From Gammaproteobacteria bacterium (GTDB lineage: Bacteria; Pseudomonadota; Gammaproteobacteria; GCA-001735895), in the NCBI GenBank assembly GCA_024222685.1, contig JAAEOZ010000343.1:1-32864 (forward strand): 32,864 nt of DNA. The letters are read 5' to 3'. Below, piece after piece: positions 9,871 to 16,521 of the stretch. The translations under genes were made by a program, and so were the position numbers. Every line of letters begins with the position of its first letter. Position 1 is the first letter of the stretch. The notes under the pieces were generated by a model. The model did not search any database, had not been told where the DNA came from, and saw only the letters and a list, made by a program, of their open reading frames with translations.

Positions 9871-10368
9871 ATGTTGCGAACAAGTCTGACAAATCGCCTG
9901 CTTTTGGCAGTAATGATGGTTCTTACCTCTTACACAACGCTGGCAATCGACGAGGTATTACCGCGAATCGATATTGTATCTGTATCAGATTTCTCTCATC
10001 TTGCAAAGATTGCAAGAAATCAGCAAAAGCTGATTATGCTGGAAGTTTCAGCAAGTTATTGCAGTTACTGCACTAAACTTGAAGAGGAACTCATAAAACC
10101 GATGCTACGTAGTGGTGATTACGATAATGATGTACTGATTCGTAAAGTTGACATCGACAGTTATAAAAATCTGCGAGACTTCGACGGAAACACGATTCCC
10201 AGCTCCAGGCTGGCGCATCAGCTCGATATCAAGGTAACGCCCACATTAATTTTTCTCAATAGTCAAAATCAGGAAGTCAGCAAACGTATAATTGGTGTAA
10301 ACTCGCTCGATTATCTGGGCAGCTATGTCGATGCTGCCATCGAACATGGTTTGACCATTATTCGCTAA
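9871..10368 (+). CDS. Periplasmic thioredoxin-fold protein, SoxW-like
   Basis: A 165-residue exported thioredoxin-family protein. A signal peptide (RLLLAVMMVLTSYTTLA, about residues 9-25) precedes a thioredoxin fold with the redox pair CSYC (Cys64, Cys67) in the context EVSASYCSYCTKLEEE, and the cis-proline strand VTPTLIFLNSQ. The long insert after the active site (KPMLRSGDYDNDVLIRKVDIDSY) resembles SoxW and DsbD-dependent thioredoxins. The likely role is reducing disulfides in the periplasm, with electrons from a DsbD/CcdA-type donor; a link to the Sox pathway is inference, since soxB lies 3.3 kb away. The start is ATG 9871, with AGGA only 2 nt upstream. A TAGAAT at 9856-9861 might be part of its promoter, but this is weak. 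queF follows after 59 nt. Confidence 0.82.
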   Translation: MLRTSLTNRLLLAVMMVLTSYTTLAIDEVLPRIDIVSVSDFSHLAKIARNQQKLIMLEVSASYCSYCTKLEEELIKPMLRSGDYDNDVLIRKVDIDSYKNLRDFDGNTIPSSRLAHQLDIKVTPTLIFLNSQNQEVSKRIIGVNSLDYLGSYVDAAIEHGLTIIR

Positions 10369-10427
10369 GCAGATTTTCGATAATCCGTTAGTGATTAAAC
10401 AAGACCAACCCGAAGTGAGACCTCCTG

Positions 10428-10820
10428 ATGAGCACGCAAACTTCCAGATCACTGGAAACCTTTGATAATCCGCAACCCGATCGCGACTATACCATTCGAA
10501 TTGATACCCCAGAGTTTACCTGTCTTTGTCCGATTACAGGGCAACCCGATTTCGCCTCCATTCAGATCGAGTATATTGCGGACAGTTTATGTCTGGAACT
10601 CAAAGCGTTAAAACTTTATTTCTGGTCCTACCGTAATGAAGGTGCTTTTCACGAAGCAATTACCAATAAAATACTTTCCGACCTGGTCGAAGCAACCCAG
10701 CCCCGGTTTATGCGCGTCAGCGCTGAATTCAATGTTCGTGGTGGCGTTTATACCCGTGTCATCGCCGAGCACCGGGCCGATAACTGGATTGCACCGGAAC
10801 TGGTTATCCTGCCTGAATAA
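10428..10820 (+). CDS. queF: 7-cyano-7-deazaguanine reductase QueF (short form)
   Basis: QueF reduces preQ0 to preQ1 with NADPH, a step in making the tRNA wobble nucleoside queuosine. This is the single-domain type (130 residues), as in Bacillus, and not the fused two-domain form of E. coli. The catalytic cysteine is Cys34 in [12 protein letters not shown], with the partner aspartate at 41. The QueF NADPH motif is [14 protein letters not shown], followed by the substrate residues His75 and Glu76 in GAFHEA. It is a cytosolic enzyme with no signal peptide. It lies 14 nt before cysZ and is probably cotranscribed with it; the two share no obvious pathway. No other queuosine gene is in the window. 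Confidence 0.95.
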
Positions 10821-10822
10821 AC

Positions 10823-10826
10823 GAGG
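10823..10826 (+). promoter_or_regulatory. Shine-Dalgarno site deciding the TTG start of cysZ
   Basis: GAGG lies 8 nt before TTG 10835 and 23 nt before the first in-frame ATG (10850). The spacing favours the TTG start. Confidence 0.6.
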
Positions 10827-10834
10827 TTCTGATT

Positions 10835-11569
10835 TTGATTAGCGATATTATGACCGGTTGCTACATGCTCGCTCGAGGTTTAAAACTGATTCGAAAGCCT
10901 GGCATCCGACCTTATGTAATCATGCCACTATTAATCAATATCTGCCTGTTTGGGGGATTGATCTGGTTTGGTTATGCGCAATTCGCACCACTGGTTGAAT
11001 GGGCAATGAGCTGGATCCCTGATTTTCTTGATTTCCTCAGATGGATTATCTGGATATTGATTACTTCCATGACCGCCATCGTCGTGTTTTTCACATTCAC
11101 ACCGCTGGCAAATATAGTGGCTGCACCGTTTAACGCGCTCATGGCAGAAAAAATAGAAGAATTTATGACTGGAAATGAAGTCAACTCTGATACCAGTTTT
11201 ATGTCTCTGGTGTCCAGCAGTATTAGTTCCCAGCTGGGTAAACTGATTTATATCCTGCTCTGGAGCGCGGGTTTATTGCTGGTAAGCGTAATACCAGTAA
11301 TAAACCTTGTATCTCCCATTCTCTGGGTAGTATTCGGTTCCTGGTTATTATCGCTTGAATATCTCGATTACCCTATGGGAAACCATAATCTAACTTTTGC
11401 CAGTCAGAAAAAAACGCTCGCCAAAAGACGCGGCTTATCACTGGGATTTGGCGGCATGGTCATGGTATTAACCAGCATCCCTGTGGTGAATTTTTTCGTT
11501 ATGCCGATAGCCGTTGCGGGTGCCACGGCCATGTGGGTGGATCAATTATCTGCTTCCGCAGAACTATAA
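10835..11569 (+). CDS. cysZ: Sulfate transporter CysZ
   Basis: CysZ is an inner-membrane sulfate permease feeding assimilatory cysteine synthesis. The 244-residue length and order fit the family: a cytoplasmic start (GCYMLARGLKLIRKPGIRPYVIMPLLIN), membrane segments at about 29-50 and 68-95 (WIIWILITSMTAIVVFFTF), the conserved PLANIVAAPFNALMAEKIE stretch, a re-entrant hydrophobic region near 130-175, the conserved LEYLDYPMGNH and a final hydrophobic hairpin near 200-235. Translation most likely begins at TTG 10835. The stop codon runs 6 nt into the convergent metallophosphoesterase gene. Its presence 2 kb from soxB puts sulfate uptake and thiosulfate oxidation functions in one neighbourhood, although they are not in one operon. 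Confidence 0.93.
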   Translation: MISDIMTGCYMLARGLKLIRKPGIRPYVIMPLLINICLFGGLIWFGYAQFAPLVEWAMSWIPDFLDFLRWIIWILITSMTAIVVFFTFTPLANIVAAPFNALMAEKIEEFMTGNEVNSDTSFMSLVSSSISSQLGKLIYILLWSAGLLLVSVIPVINLVSPILWVVFGSWLLSLEYLDYPMGNHNLTFASQKKTLAKRRGLSLGFGGMVMVLTSIPVVNFFVMPIAVAGATAMWVDQLSASAEL

Positions 11570-12400
11570 AAGAGTCAAACATTGTAATTGTATCGGCTTA
11601 CCACGCTGACGCTTTTCCCATTGCGGCAATACATCTTCGCCTGGCCATAACCCGTCAACCAGCGCCTGACCGTATTCGATCATTCCTGCAGCCACCGTAG
11701 ATTGCCGACTAAGATCTGCTGCATAGCTAAGCCTGTGCCAGCAAGCACTAACGCCTTCCTGTTTGGCATCTAGTAACATATACCAGGTATCACAACAGCC
11801 ATCATTGGCCGGCATTCCGATGACGCCCGCATTTAACCAGTATCCCGCTTCCACTTTTTGACCAAATGGTATTCCTGAGTGACCACCGATGATGATATCT
11901 GTCTTTGCCTGACGAATCTGTTTGCTTTTTTCCATCAACGAATCTGATTCGAATATAAACTGGTTAATACTTGAGACCCCTGCATGAATTACCTGGCAGT
12001 TAAATCCAGAGTAAAGAAAACTTATTGAAGCCGGCAAATCTACCAGCCATTGGCGATGCTCTTTTTTGATCAACGCATTTGCGTAATCAAACCATTTATC
12101 CGACAAAATTGAACAGGAACTTCCTTCTTCAAAACCGCAGTCACAATCATCCGCCCCAGTTGCCAGCGATTTTTCACAGTTTCCCATAACAACAGGGATA
12201 TCCCAGTCACGAATGAGTTCGATGGTTTCGTTCGGTTCTCCACAATAGGCAACCAGATCCCCTGTACAGATTACATTGTTAGCTGGTACATCAAGTAACC
12301 TGGCCTGAGCATAAATCGCTCGTGTAGCTTCAAGATTACTATACGGCCCACCGAAAATAAGTATTCGACCTTCGATTTTCCCAAGATTAAGCGTATGCAT
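11564..12400 (-). CDS. Atypical calcineurin-like metallophosphoesterase
   Basis: A 278-residue cytosolic protein of the calcineurin-like phosphoesterase superfamily. Visible metal motifs are GDLVAY (Gly47-Asp48), GNCE (Gly73-Asn74-Cys75-Glu76, in place of GNHD/E), an isolated His139 (VIHAG) and GGHSGIPF (His174). The first motif, normally DxH, is replaced by GGPYSN (17-22), so one metal ligand pair is missing. A cysteine cluster Cys75-X10-Cys86-X-Cys88-X7-Cys96 follows GNCE. I recall close relatives that also have GGPYSN, so this seems to be a subfamily trait and not decay. Substrate is unknown. It lies 42 nt downstream of the HupE-like gene, probably in one operon, and its 3' end overlaps cysZ by 6 nt. 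Confidence 0.8.
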   Translation of the reverse strand: MHTLNLGKIEGRILIFGGPYSNLEATRAIYAQARLLDVPANNVICTGDLVAYCGEPNETIELIRDWDIPVVMGNCEKSLATGADDCDCGFEEGSSCSILSDKWFDYANALIKKEHRQWLVDLPASISFLYSGFNCQVIHAGVSSINQFIFESDSLMEKSKQIRQAKTDIIIGGHSGIPFGQKVEAGYWLNAGVIGMPANDGCCDTWYMLLDAKQEGVSACWHRLSYAADLSRQSTVAAGMIEYGQALVDGLWPGEDVLPQWEKRQRGKPIQLQCLTLL

Positions 12401-12442
12401 TCGGCGCCAGTTTGAGTAGTAGTATAGGAATCTCTATATTTG

Positions 12443-13666
12443 TCATATCGTAGCGAGGATACCAGCCCAGTCCAGTCTCTGCCAGAACCAGAACAAACCG
12501 GTTAGGGCAACGAGTAATGATGCAGGAATAACGAAATGTCGACGATAATCTTTCCATTCTCGGAGCCAGACTATAACTAACATCCAGAAGCCTAGCAGAA
12601 TTGCTACCTGCCCCAGTTCGACGCCGAGATTAAAACCGAACAGTGCCAGCAGAAAACTATCCTCTGGCAATCCGAACTCCTTTAGCATTGTTGCGAAACC
12701 AAGGCCGTGCAATAAACCGAAAATAAAGATAATACCGAGACGAGTGCGTTTTACGTCCTGCTGGATAATATTTTCCACTGCAATAAAAGCAATTGACAGT
12801 GCAATCAGAGGTTCAACCAGTAAGTCCGGCAAGGTAAATATACCCATTGTTGACAGGCTCAGGGTAATCGAATGCGCCAGCGTAAACATGGTTACCTGCC
12901 AGAGAAGAGGCCGCAAAGTTCGAGCCATCAAAAGTAAACCAAGCACAAACAAAATATGATCTGCGCCCATGGGCAGAATATGCAGGAAACCGGCTTCGAC
13001 ATAGGTATAAAGTACCGAATGCCAGGAGGGTTTAGCTGCCAGCCCCTGTAGCTGAAAAGGTTCTGATACTTTATCATGCCGAATCCATTGATACTCTGAC
13101 CAGTGCCAGAATTCCCTTTCTTCATCTACCAGTTTTACACGTACAGCATGATCCCCGAATTTGGACGGATAATACCACTGTAGATAGCGAGGGTTCCCTG
13201 TGATTTCAGCCCGCAGAAAAATAGCACTGGTCCGCGGTACTTTGGTATAGCCCGGTTCAGGAATTTCAATTGATTCGATTTCGACTGGAATGGTTTTATG
13301 CTCCAGCGTAAGAGCTACGCCTTCAACAAATCTACTATGAAATCTCTGGAAGGACTTTCCAAGCTCGTCGGCTGACTGGACTCTGAATTCATCGTACAAA
13401 TCAGCCGTTGGCGCATCCCGGGTATTACGGTATTGACCATCAATGCCACTTAACAATGCCTCCAGACTGGTACGTATCTCAATAATAATTCGACCGTCAG
13501 AATAAATAGCAATTTCAGTCAATGCAGGTTTGACAACATCGGCACTCGCTGTAAGAGGGTCTGCCAGAAACAAAATAACTGAGAGTATTCTGAGAACAGT
13601 GTGTGGGATTTTGGGATAGAAAATCAATGGAACAGGCTTAACCCAAAGGGCATATATTTCAGGCAA
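12443..13666 (-). CDS. HupE/UreJ-family membrane protein with large extracytoplasmic domain
   Basis: A 407-residue protein with a signal-like N-terminus (HTVLRILSVILFLADPLTASA), about 200 residues of predicted extracytoplasmic beta-rich sequence, and a C-terminal block of six or so membrane helices (about 215-405). The membrane part carries the HupE/UreJ_2 pattern GADHILFVLGLLL, TLAHSITLSLS, ENI and FGLLHGLGFA, with histidines well placed to bind metal. HupE/UreJ proteins are linked to nickel or cobalt uptake; this longer form is common in marine gammaproteobacteria, and its substrate has not been settled to my knowledge. It is divergent from soxB with only 36 nt between the start codons as drawn, and the metallophosphoesterase follows. 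The exact start is uncertain because no clear ribosome site is visible. Confidence 0.8.
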   Translation of the reverse strand: MPEIYALWVKPVPLIFYPKIPHTVLRILSVILFLADPLTASADVVKPALTEIAIYSDGRIIIEIRTSLEALLSGIDGQYRNTRDAPTADLYDEFRVQSADELGKSFQRFHSRFVEGVALTLEHKTIPVEIESIEIPEPGYTKVPRTSAIFLRAEITGNPRYLQWYYPSKFGDHAVRVKLVDEEREFWHWSEYQWIRHDKVSEPFQLQGLAAKPSWHSVLYTYVEAGFLHILPMGADHILFVLGLLLMARTLRPLLWQVTMFTLAHSITLSLSTMGIFTLPDLLVEPLIALSIAFIAVENIIQQDVKRTRLGIIFIFGLLHGLGFATMLKEFGLPEDSFLLALFGFNLGVELGQVAILLGFWMLVIVWLREWKDYRRHFVIPASLLVALTGLFWFWQRLDWAGILATI

Positions 13667-13676
13667 CTACGGTCGG

Positions 13677-13682
13677 TATAAT
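13677..13682 (+). promoter_or_regulatory. Candidate -10 box of soxB
   Basis: A perfect TATAAT, preceded by GG, lies 21 nt before the soxB ATG. The best -35 candidate, TATTTC at 13655-13660 with a 16-nt spacer, is poor and lies inside the divergent HupE-like gene. Activator dependence is possible. Confidence 0.4.
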
Positions 13683-13702
13683 AAATATGACAAGAATAGC
13701 GC

Positions 13703-15625
13703 ATGGGCAAACAGGTTATGACCGATTTATACAGGCGTCAACTGATCAAGTTGATGGGAGCCGGAGCAGCTGCTAGCACGCTTCCGGGGTGCTTTATCAA
13801 TTCCAGCCAGGCGGCTACGAAGCCCGTTGAATTCTATAAAATGGTTATGCAGGGTAATGCGCGAATTCTACATATTACCGATGTGCACGGACAGCTATTG
13901 CCGGTTTATTTTCGAGAACCGAATGTAAACCTGGGCATTGGAGAGGCCTATGGTCGACCACCTCACGTGGTCGGTAAAAAACTACTTAAGCATATGGGTC
14001 TGAAAGAAAATAGTGTTGAATCCTATGCTTATAGCTACCTGGAATTTGAGTCATCCGCAAAAAAATATGGCCGTACCGGTGGTTTTGCCCACCTGAAAAC
14101 CCTGCTCGATGATTTACGCGAGTCGGCAGGCGGTAAACAAAACACATTGACATTAGATGGTGGCGATTTATGGCAGGGCTCCGGTACCTCATTGTGGACT
14201 CGAGGCGTTGATATGGTCGAGGCATCTAATATTCTCGGTGTTGACGTCATGGTAGGGCACTGGGAATTTACTTATCGGGAAGACGAAGTACTCAGTAATG
14301 TGACTTTGTTTAAAGGCGATTTTATCGGACAGAATGTCCGGGTTAAAGAGGATGCACTTTTCGGCGATGATTATTTCGAAATGGTTGAAAAATATGATGG
14401 ACGAGGCCTGTTTGACGAGGATTCGGGCCATGCTTTTCGACCCTATGTGATTAAGAATTTCGGCGGCGCACGTGTTGCCGTAGTAGGCCAGGCATTTCCT
14501 AGAACAGCGAATGCCAATCCTCAGGAGTTCTTCCCGGACTGGTCATTCGGCCTACGAGAGGATGATATGATTGAGCTGGTTGAGGAAATCAAATCATCCG
14601 AGTCTCCAGATGCCATTGTACTTCTCTCGCACAATGGCATGGATGTCGATATAAAAATGGCTCAGAATATTCCAAACCTGGATGCGGTTTTTGGAGGCCA
14701 CACGCACGACGGTATGCCACAGCCGATAAAGGTCAATAATGCCGGCGGTGGAAAATGCTGGGTTACCAATGCAGGTTCCAACGGCAAGTATATCGGTGTA
14801 ATGGATTTTGATATTGCAGATAATGGCATTAAATCAATGCACTATAAAATGATGCCTATAATCACCGACTGGTTACCCGCCGATAAGGAAATGGATGCCT
14901 ATATCAAGCAGATGAGGTCAACAGTCTATTCCGATAAAATTATCGAATCTCGATCCAGCGAACTCGCTTTTAACCCCACACGGGTTGGTAAAACCTTCGA
15001 TGCTATCCTTACCGAAAAACTTGCCATTGCCGACCGCACTTTATACCGACGTGGGAACTTTATGGGAACCTGGGATCAGGTCATCTGCAATGCATTACGC
15101 CATGAATTCCAGGCTGATGTCGCACTCTCTCCTGGAGTACGCTGGGGTACCACTACTCCTGAGGGCGAGTGGATCACAATGGAAGATGTGATGAACCAGT
15201 GCTCAATGACTTACGCAGAAAGCTACGTTTCGGAAATGACCGGTGCTGCTCTATTAAATGTTCTCGAAGGTGTTGCTGATAACCTCTTCGACCCCGACCC
15301 TTATTTGCAATCTGGTGGCGACATGGTTAGAGTTGGTGGCATGGATTATACCATCGAACCCACCCAGGCTTATGGAAAACGTATTAGCAACGCAAGATTA
15401 GATAATGGTAATGCTATCGACGCCGATAAAACCTATCGTGTCACTGGATGGGCAACTGTTAATCGAACTCCTGATGGTCGTCTGGTGTGGGATATTGTTC
15501 GAGATTACATACTCGCAAAACGTGACGATAATAAGATTCTACGTCTTCCGAAAATAAACCATCCGACATTGGTCGGGGTTGGTGAAAACCCCGGAATTGC
15601 CGATTATCCCGGCATAATTATTTAA
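13703..15625 (+). CDS. soxB: Thiosulfohydrolase SoxB
   Basis: SoxB is a periplasmic dimanganese enzyme that hydrolyses the sulfonate from SoxY-bound S-thiosulfonate during thiosulfate oxidation. The 640-residue protein begins with a twin-arginine signal (YRRQLIK, Arg11-Arg12) and a hydrophobic stretch ending LPGC. The metallophosphoesterase-like core shows DVHGQ (Asp60, His62), GGDLWQGS (Asp155), the SoxB-type GHWEFTY (185-191), SHNGMD (His310) and GGHTHDG (His333, His335). The C-terminal 5'-nucleotidase-like domain has the SoxB stretch VICNALRHEFQADVALSPGVRWG split over two lines of conservation around residues 460-485. A second ATG at 13718 also keeps the Tat motif. No soxXYZACD gene is in the window. 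An M23 peptidase follows after 56 nt with its own -10 box. Confidence 0.93.
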   Translation: MGKQVMTDLYRRQLIKLMGAGAAASTLPGCFINSSQAATKPVEFYKMVMQGNARILHITDVHGQLLPVYFREPNVNLGIGEAYGRPPHVVGKKLLKHMGLKENSVESYAYSYLEFESSAKKYGRTGGFAHLKTLLDDLRESAGGKQNTLTLDGGDLWQGSGTSLWTRGVDMVEASNILGVDVMVGHWEFTYREDEVLSNVTLFKGDFIGQNVRVKEDALFGDDYFEMVEKYDGRGLFDEDSGHAFRPYVIKNFGGARVAVVGQAFPRTANANPQEFFPDWSFGLREDDMIELVEEIKSSESPDAIVLLSHNGMDVDIKMAQNIPNLDAVFGGHTHDGMPQPIKVNNAGGGKCWVTNAGSNGKYIGVMDFDIADNGIKSMHYKMMPIITDWLPADKEMDAYIKQMRSTVYSDKIIESRSSELAFNPTRVGKTFDAILTEKLAIADRTLYRRGNFMGTWDQVICNALRHEFQADVALSPGVRWGTTTPEGEWITMEDVMNQCSMTYAESYVSEMTGAALLNVLEGVADNLFDPDPYLQSGGDMVRVGGMDYTIEPTQAYGKRISNARLDNGNAIDADKTYRVTGWATVNRTPDGRLVWDIVRDYILAKRDDNKILRLPKINHPTLVGVGENPGIADYPGIII

Positions 15626-15663: not shown

Positions 15664-15682
15664 TTCAGATTGACATTCTGAA
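15664..15682 (+). repeat. Inverted repeat at the M23 start codon
   Basis: TTCAGA and TCTGAA, separated by 7 nt, form a perfect 6-bp inverted repeat whose last base is the A of the start codon. In RNA it would place the ribosome entry region in a hairpin; as DNA it could be a protein site. No Shine-Dalgarno sequence is visible here. Confidence 0.35.
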
Positions 15683-16521
15683 TGGTCTATTCGATGCGCT
15701 TTATTACGCGGTTATGCTTATTTTACCTTTTCCTGTTGCAACCCCTCTCCAGCTACGCACTACCTCAGCATTCTCTCGTGCCAGGTGGAATAGCGGTTAT
15801 AAAACTGGATCGTAATGACAGCAGGCCTGAGTTTCGTTTTCGTGGAAAACCGATTTTAATCACTAACCATAAAAATCATTACATAGCAATAGTCGGGCTT
15901 CCCCTCAATCTGAAGCCAGGTGAATATTTTATTGAAGGCTATTGGGGCAAAGAATCAACATTGCAGAAGAAATTCTTTGTCGTCAAACAAAAAAACTATA
16001 CAACTCAGCATATCACTATAAAGGACAAGCGAAAGGTCAATCCCTATGCAAAGGACATGGAACGTATTCTTAAAGAAAAAAAACGAAAACAGAAAGCCCG
16101 CAAAACTTTCGATCGCCAACCTGCTGACCTCGATTTTGAACTACCTGTGGAGGGTATTAAAACGGGTAGTTTTGGAAAACGACGGGTATTTAATGGCCAG
16201 GCACGTCGACCTCACAGTGGTATGGACATTGCAGCCGATACTGGAACTCCTGTCAGAGCACCCGCTGCTGGCATTGTAATAGAAACTGGTGATTTTTTCT
16301 TTAGCGGCAACCTGATATACCTACATCATGGACAGGGGCTGATTACCCTGTTTGCCCATCTGGATCAGATTGATGTTACCATCGGTGACAAGGTCAAAAA
16401 AGGACAGGTTATTGGACGAGTAGGTGCTACTGGCCGTGTAACCGGCCCCCATTTGCATTGGAGCCTGGGATTAAACGGAACCTGGATTGATCCTGCCTTA
16501 TTTTTCCCGATAGGACCCTGA
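15682..16521 (+). CDS. M23-family peptidoglycan endopeptidase
   Basis: An exported zinc metallopeptidase of the LytM/lysostaphin type, which cuts peptide cross-links in murein or acts as an activator of amidases. The N-terminus is a signal peptide (RLCLFYLFLLQPLSSYALP). A small beta domain follows (about 27-115), then a basic linker (KEKKRKQKARK) and the M23 domain (about 150-279). The zinc and catalytic residues are intact: HSGMD (His and Asp), AHL and HLHW, together with the usual GTPVRAPAAGIV and GDKVKKGQVIG strands. Because the motifs are complete it should be a true enzyme, unlike the degenerate NlpD/EnvC activators. A second ATG at 15694 would also give a good signal peptide. It follows soxB on the same strand and abuts the convergent yfaZ gene with no gap. 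Confidence 0.9.
   Translation: MVYSMRFITRLCLFYLFLLQPLSSYALPQHSLVPGGIAVIKLDRNDSRPEFRFRGKPILITNHKNHYIAIVGLPLNLKPGEYFIEGYWGKESTLQKKFFVVKQKNYTTQHITIKDKRKVNPYAKDMERILKEKKRKQKARKTFDRQPADLDFELPVEGIKTGSFGKRRVFNGQARRPHSGMDIAADTGTPVRAPAAGIVIETGDFFFSGNLIYLHHGQGLITLFAHLDQIDVTIGDKVKKGQVIGRVGATGRVTGPHLHWSLGLNGTWIDPALFFPIGP

Follow-up and report, generated by a model that had tools for sequence, protein, structure and literature searches.

Do a degenerate metallophosphoesterase and a HupE-type membrane protein that are encoded side by side and face soxB work together? This question was raised by a contig of 32,864 nt from a gammaproteobacterium (JAAEOZ010000343.1; this whole stretch is hereafter called the window), in which the genes of the metallophosphoesterase (MPE) and of HupE lie on the same (minus) strand with a gap of 42 bp, and hupE and soxB have divergent start codons with about 36 bp between them. 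The original prediction had taken the first two genes as a pair and had considered a role in metal supply or sensing that is shared with soxB. Comparison of the locus across genomes showed that MPE and hupE-soxB are two separate modules, which are neighbours by accident. The genes in question are as follows.

11564-12400, minus strand: MPE, an open reading frame of 278 aa with a weak Metallophos_2 match (31.7 bits) and the family motifs GGPYSN, GNCE, CGC..C and GHSG
12443-13666, minus strand: HupE, 407 aa; PF13795, E = 2e-46, 158 bits against a cut-off of 24.5
13667-13702, no strand: divergent start region of hupE and soxB, from sequence and coordinates
13703-15625, plus strand: SoxB of the long (~640 aa) type; TIGR04486, 714 bits against a cut-off of 550

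The HupE open reading frame opens with TTG, and its true start may be internal.

Results

hupE is tied to the long type of soxB

By using the window SoxB as a query against 274 sampled genomes of the class, 104 genomes were matched at E ≤ 1e-100, and the stretches around 30 loci, together with 20 loci of lower identity, were taken from the longer list and examined; L144-L146, which contain no SoxB, were dropped from the counts. Among the 27 loci with a SoxB at least 57% identical to that of the window, hupE was found within 250 bp of soxB at 18 (14 divergent and 4 on the same strand) and at distances of 756 and 2281 bp at two more. Against a strict coupling stand the other seven long-type loci, some of them near contig ends, which had no hupE in the stretch read. 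At the loci of other SoxB types (3 at 48-50% and 20 at 40-53% identity), by contrast, hupE was found in none of the 23 stretches read, which gives a Fisher p of 4e-7 for 18/27 versus 0/23, with relatedness ignored. The link spans many families of the class, and the genes beyond hupE-soxB differ between loci. Thus, hupE is tied to the long-type soxB, and this tie is conserved. Two genomes carry two long-type soxB copies each: in G032 (L147/L148) both have hupE, and in G050 (L142/L143) one has it and one does not.

SoxB is a dinuclear manganese enzyme. As in SoxB thiosulfohydrolases, the window protein matches TIGR04486 above the cut-off and has intact metal motifs (ITDVHG/GHWE/SHNG/GGHTH), and by inspection it carries a twin-arginine-type leader (RRQLIK). 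It differs from the SoxB of most congeners in length and score, having about 640 aa and about 714 bits versus 590 aa and 840-850 bits. A literature search found nothing that joins HupE with soxB.

MPE belongs to another locus

MPE is present in 23 of the 31 genomes of the same genus, and reading of all 23 neighbourhoods gave a usual gene order of queF-cysZ-MPE-M23-yfaZ-parA, the central part of which is kept around the hupE-soxB block in the window.

10835-11569, plus strand: cysZ, a flank in the ancestral cysZ-MPE-M23 order, overlapping the end of MPE by 6 bp
15682-16521, plus strand: M23 peptidase gene, the second flank of the ancestral locus
9871-10368, plus strand: secreted thioredoxin-like protein with CSYC, found at the MPE locus only together with the hupE-soxB block

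The proposal that HupE, MPE and SoxB form one metal module has in its favour the window itself, where MPE and hupE are 42 bp apart on one strand and face soxB. However, in 20 of the 23 congeners with MPE, neither hupE nor soxB lies between MPE and M23/yfaZ, and the hupE-soxB block adjoins MPE in only three (the window, G011 and G012); further, none of the 30 SoxB loci outside the genus had MPE in the stretches read. MPE is also kept in G015, a 99% complete congener without a SoxB match, and it occurs in 29 of 148 sampled Rhodobacterales genomes, mostly between CNNM/CorC-type and xerC-type genes near aroK-aroB (named by reading of translations). Therefore, we rejected MPE and HupE as a functional pair, and a conserved module of all three is refuted and very improbable. 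Of the original prediction, the part that placed hupE opposite soxB stood up as a real link, whereas MPE has no part in it, and the co-occurrence survey that it had called for went against the triad.

In a sample of the whole phylum (Pseudomonadota), MPE was found in 6 of 398 genomes, the window's own counted. A genome-wide scan with the single MPE sequence gave one locus only, and 20 pattern matches in viral contigs included no relative.

A solute importer seems to have been the older partner of MPE, because a gene of a sodium:solute symporter (SSF) abuts or overlaps MPE in G012, G015 and G035. The three divergent symporter genes are those at L023:6020-7495, L042:10240-11670 and L041:5496-6881, and in G012 the symporter gene sits between the other two, in the order hupE-SSF-MPE. 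A search of G000 found no SSF symporter, and no symporter remnant was present in the gap between MPE and HupE of L022 (G011), where reading of the frames at 10405-11062 showed a small antitoxin and ParE-like toxin pair. In Roseomonas, a Phn-like ATP-binding cassette (ABC) importer operon lies beside MPE.

Among the MPE loci, only those of the window, L022 and L023, the genomes with the hupE-soxB block, have the CSYC thioredoxin-like gene, the product of which may be a SoxW-like partner.

HupE is an anglerase with Asp in place of the N-terminal His

An AlphaFold2 model of HupE was built from 23 SoxB-linked HupEs, with a predicted local distance difference test (pLDDT) score of 84.5. When it was compared with solved structures by Foldseek, 9gce alone fell below E = 0.001 (E = 2.9e-9; template modelling score of 0.84 by target length), and the HupE profile recovered the same chain at E = 2.6e-12. 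This structure shows the Ang-1 domain of a HupE/UreJ-2 protein (RbAng-1a) with copper bound. Anglerases, as described in PMC12537917, consist of a periplasmic domain fused to a HupE/UreJ-2 permease and are proposed to serve in metal capture and import; copper is bound by His1, the mature N-terminus of the periplasmic domain, together with Asn41. The main text of that paper makes no mention of soxB. Like RbAng-1a, the window HupE has a signal peptide, an Ang-1 domain and a HupE/UreJ-2 permease; it is thus an anglerase, and its assignment to a metal-uptake-type family, as first read from the sequence, is borne out.

13037-13540, minus strand: HupE Ang-1-like domain, residues ~43-210; Foldseek and profile match to 9gce
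13538-13540, minus strand: codon of HupE Asp43, the predicted mature N-terminus; Asp in 23/23 SoxB-linked HupEs, with the cleavage site predicted from an AxA motif
12560-13003, minus strand: HupE/UreJ-2 permease domain, residues 222-369, with invariant H229, D236, H237, H265 and H320

Two things set the window protein apart from RbAng-1a, namely soxB as its genetic partner and Asp, not His, as the mature N-terminal residue. His1 is stated to be 100% conserved among anglerases (PMC12537917), but all 23 SoxB-linked HupEs have Asp43 at the aligned position, preceded by Ala in 22. For comparison, 14 HupE/UreJ-2 homologues were taken from contigs other than those of soxB; excluding L259, the start of which is unclear, 13 were readable and had His in 10 and Asp in 3.

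The swap from His to Asp suggests a harder metal ion, for example the Mn(II) on which SoxB depends. With Asp as the harder ligand, a dinuclear manganese site in SoxB and a twin-arginine-type leader, loading of the imported manganese onto SoxB in the cytoplasm would be a sensible reading. Two observations weigh against manganese: Asp also occurs in 3 of the 13 homologues away from sox genes (L249, L251 and L252, with ADE[YF]RPA at the His1 position), and according to PMC12537917 the known Ang-1 domain binds Cu and Ni, while Mn slightly destabilises RbAng-1a. HupE may instead import Cu or Ni and adjoin soxB for another reason, for instance to supply a cuproprotein of the sulfur pathway or the maturation of haem proteins, in line with RbAng-1a binding Cu and then Ni by thermal shift in that source. 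Yet the copper-binding His1 is replaced in every SoxB-linked HupE, and the link is with soxB itself, with other neighbours varying by locus; we regard import of Cu or Ni as possible but doubtful.

MPE has lost one metal half-site and carries four invariant cysteines

The AlphaFold2 model of MPE is a confident single domain (pLDDT 96.9; predicted template modelling score of 0.94), whose best fold matches were SapH, PH1004, 1nnw and 3rqz (Z of 25-26, root-mean-square deviation of 2.8-2.9, 215-243 residues aligned); a sequence search of solved structures gave weak matches only. Together with the Metallophos_2 match, this shows that MPE has the calcineurin-like superfamily fold. The calcineurin-like phosphoesterases SapH (3qfm), PH1004 (2gju) and 3rqz resemble it over the whole domain, but at 15-23% identity and with a two-metal motif set that MPE does not retain, and a fold in common shows no function.

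12335-12352, minus strand: MPE GGPYSN, residues 17-22, replacing SDxHxN; M1 ligands lost
12173-12184, minus strand: MPE GNCE, residues 73-76, with C75 at the catalytic His position of GNHD/E (Tyr in ars-operon MPEs)
12113-12145, minus strand: MPE C86-x-C88-x7-C96; C86/C88 align with Cys74/Cys76 of Car1-type ars-operon MPEs
11873-11881, minus strand: MPE HSG, residues 174-176; H174 kept, invariant Gly instead of the second His of GHxH

Conservation was evaluated in an alignment of 43 sequences, the window MPE and 42 from other loci with 32-63% identity to it, from which MPEs that are split (G029) or partial (C259 of G035, and G032) were left out. G18, N22, D48, N74, C75, C86, C88, C96, H139, H174 and G176 are invariant (43/43), and Y20, C45 and C53 are found in 42, 41 and 38 sequences, respectively. 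Compared with canonical relatives, SDxHxN has become GGPYSN, GNHD/E has become GNCE, and GHTH has become GHSG (173-176), so that the DxH, GNH and GHxH parts of the canonical two-metal set are changed, while GD, N, H139 and H174 are retained. We take these replacements as the loss of the M1 ligands and of the catalytic His, with the M2-type ligands (D48, N74, H139 and H174) retained. The motif readings GGPYSN for DxH, GNCE for GNHE and CX10CXCX7C (C75-x10-C86-x-C88-x7-C96) in the original prediction all proved correct, and its suggestion of a chemistry changed along with the ligands gained support from this alignment, which also bore out the conservation of the cysteines on which that prediction had been made to depend; the lost second His of GHxH and the four ligands kept in 43/43 go beyond it. 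Since C75, C86, C88 and C96 are kept throughout while five other cysteines (C135, C202, C203, C220 and C274) are not conserved, the four-Cys pattern is not due to chance.

MPE shares its CxC spacing with Car1-type MPEs

A plasmid search with MPE led to MPEs of ars operons in Bacteroidota, Rubrobacter and Paraclostridium. Arsenic genes lie beside the MPE gene at nine loci (L174, L175, L176, L178, L179, L180, L181, L184 and L195), and 13 other loci of MPE relatives (L177, L182, L183 and L185-L194) were read without adjoining arsenic genes. According to PMC12124457, the MPE of Paraclostridium dentum shares about 40% identity with Car1, the arsenate reductase from Rufibacter tibetensis, and possesses the Cys74 and Cys76 that are essential in Car1.

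DxH and GHTH are retained in eight ars-operon MPEs (alignment A6), which have GNYD and, always 11 residues past its Tyr, a CGC. By counting along the Adhaeribacter homologue, the two cysteines of this CGC are Cys74 and Cys76; in the alignment they fall opposite the window's C86 and C88, and Y63-x10-C74 there equals C75-x10-C86 here. The two groups share the fold family, an identical GNx-x10-C-G-C spacing, an altered catalytic His (Tyr versus Cys), an aromatic residue two positions past the second Cys in most members and I/V-N following the HG motif in several; the Car1 feature of a CxC pair after GN is present in the window MPE and in 43/43 of the family. In contrast, the window family is without DxH and the second His of GHxH, and thus without the intact dinuclear metal ligands that A6 retains, is not located in ars operons (window, congener and Rhodobacterales contexts), and has two extra invariant cysteines, C75 and C96.

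The Car1-type profile matched in 79 of 398 Pseudomonadota genomes, and among its best 30 loci, one of which (L196) was unreadable, CxC was found only in three window-family members. In profile-profile comparison, MPE scored 253 to ars-operon MPEs versus 201 to canonical MPEs. Trees were built in three ways, with four long-branch rows left out of the second and third, and placed the window family in one clade with a support of 100/100. They speak neither for nor against a shared origin with the Car1-type group, towards which the profile scores lean.

Two side observations concern these relatives. Family f58 (L197, L200, L201, L209 and similar) scores highly with the Car1-type profile; its members are about 510-620 aa long and contain a canonical MPE domain. 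In ars operons of Pedobacter (L180:2224-3735) and Mucilaginibacter (L195:2501-3993), MPEs stand in tandem, the first with GNY and CGC and the second with GNH and without CGC.

Judged from the conserved residues and their spacing, MPE is probably a thiol-redox rather than a hydrolytic enzyme, and a Car1-like mechanism is likely. Several observations weigh against this. The join of the window family to the Car1-type group has a support of only 58/66, and in the best tree built without the motif columns the two are apart, by a difference that is not significant (approximately unbiased test, p = 0.109). No arsenic gene adjoins MPE in the window or in the congener neighbourhoods read. In Rhodobacterales, ACR3 is not enriched in genomes with MPE (16/29 versus 55/119, p = 0.41), ArsS is found in 0/148 genomes, and the one ACR3 gene near MPE (G498, about 4.5 kb away) may be there by chance. 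Because the trees do not decide, arsenic co-occurrence is lacking and several Car1 features are absent, we put forward a Car1-like mechanism as likely, but not membership of the Car1 type.

MPEs of cyanobacterial plasmids, which have GCW, also carry CxC. In L185:3001-4568 and L186:3001-4618 they stand in tandem, the first with GCW and CxC and the second without the standard motifs. They adjoin GTP-binding, folE, hemB or hisI genes, which we take to be zinc-regulon paralogues. Since these CxC relatives adjoin zinc-type genes, CxC may bind metal, and MPE could be a non-catalytic binder, with Zn, an Fe-S cluster or As(III) bound by the four cysteines and with the fold serving as the scaffold of a sensor or chaperone. 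The four invariant cysteines and four invariant M2-type ligands beside a vanished M1 site would suit such a protein. However, Car1, the only CxC member with a biochemical description, is a reductase (PMC12124457), and a four-Cys site would be new because C96 is absent from Car1-type MPEs; we give the binder a minor share of the probability.

Alternatively, MPE could be an enzyme of arsenosugar or other organoarsenical metabolism, with an imported arsenical, phosphorylated or oxidised, as its substrate. In G035, a true ArsS (466 bits) is encoded upstream of MPE, in a neighbourhood that also has MerA-like/VTT and DUF547 genes, and in Roseomonas it is clustered with a TIGR04282 glycosyltransferase, a radical S-adenosylmethionine (SAM) protein, DUF547 and the Phn-like importer. 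Nevertheless, ArsS (TIGR04167) is over the cut-off in 30 of the 31 genomes of the genus (G020 is without it), which suggests that arsenosugar synthesis is common there, and because it is nearly universal, the G035 context says nothing. The Roseomonas radical SAM protein is far under the ArsS cut-off (61 versus 300 bits), and the Rhodobacterales genomes lacking ArsS include the 29 with MPE. The arsenosugar pathway as a general role of MPE is thus unsupported beyond G035 and Roseomonas, and we consider an organoarsenical enzyme unlikely.

Discussion

The explanation that we favour, at about an even chance of being right, consists of two modules, an anglerase HupE that imports metal for SoxB and an MPE that uses the phosphoesterase fold for thiol-redox chemistry. 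In the first, the Ang-1 domain would sit in the periplasm before the HupE/UreJ-2 channel, and its N-terminal Asp would capture the ion to be imported, most likely Mn(II); the metal would then load SoxB, which would leave the cytoplasm folded. In the second, MPE would simply belong to the cysZ-M23 locus, with a solute importer as its older partner. A mononuclear M2-type site (D48, N74, H139 and H174) would stay after the loss of the M1 half-site, and C86-x-C88 would be a redox pair that acts on an arsenate-like or organo-oxyanion substrate with the help of C75 and C96. The gene order of the window fits entry of the hupE-soxB block beside MPE and loss of the intervening symporter gene, which is why the two modules would touch here. 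The more specific proposal, that the SoxB-linked HupE is an Asp-type manganese anglerase feeding SoxB and that, independently, the MPE family comprises four-Cys thiol oxidoreductases beyond Car1, is put forward tentatively, as one that may well prove wrong.

The locus offers a conserved soxB-linked anglerase permease with Asp in place of the metal-binding His, and a permease linked to one SoxB type with a one-residue swap at the metal-capturing position makes it testable, with a small soluble domain, how exported sulfur-oxidation enzymes acquire manganese. It offers, besides, an unrelated and widely conserved MPE family, found in Rhodobacterales and other bacteria, which is a second possible case of a hydrolase fold turned to redox chemistry.

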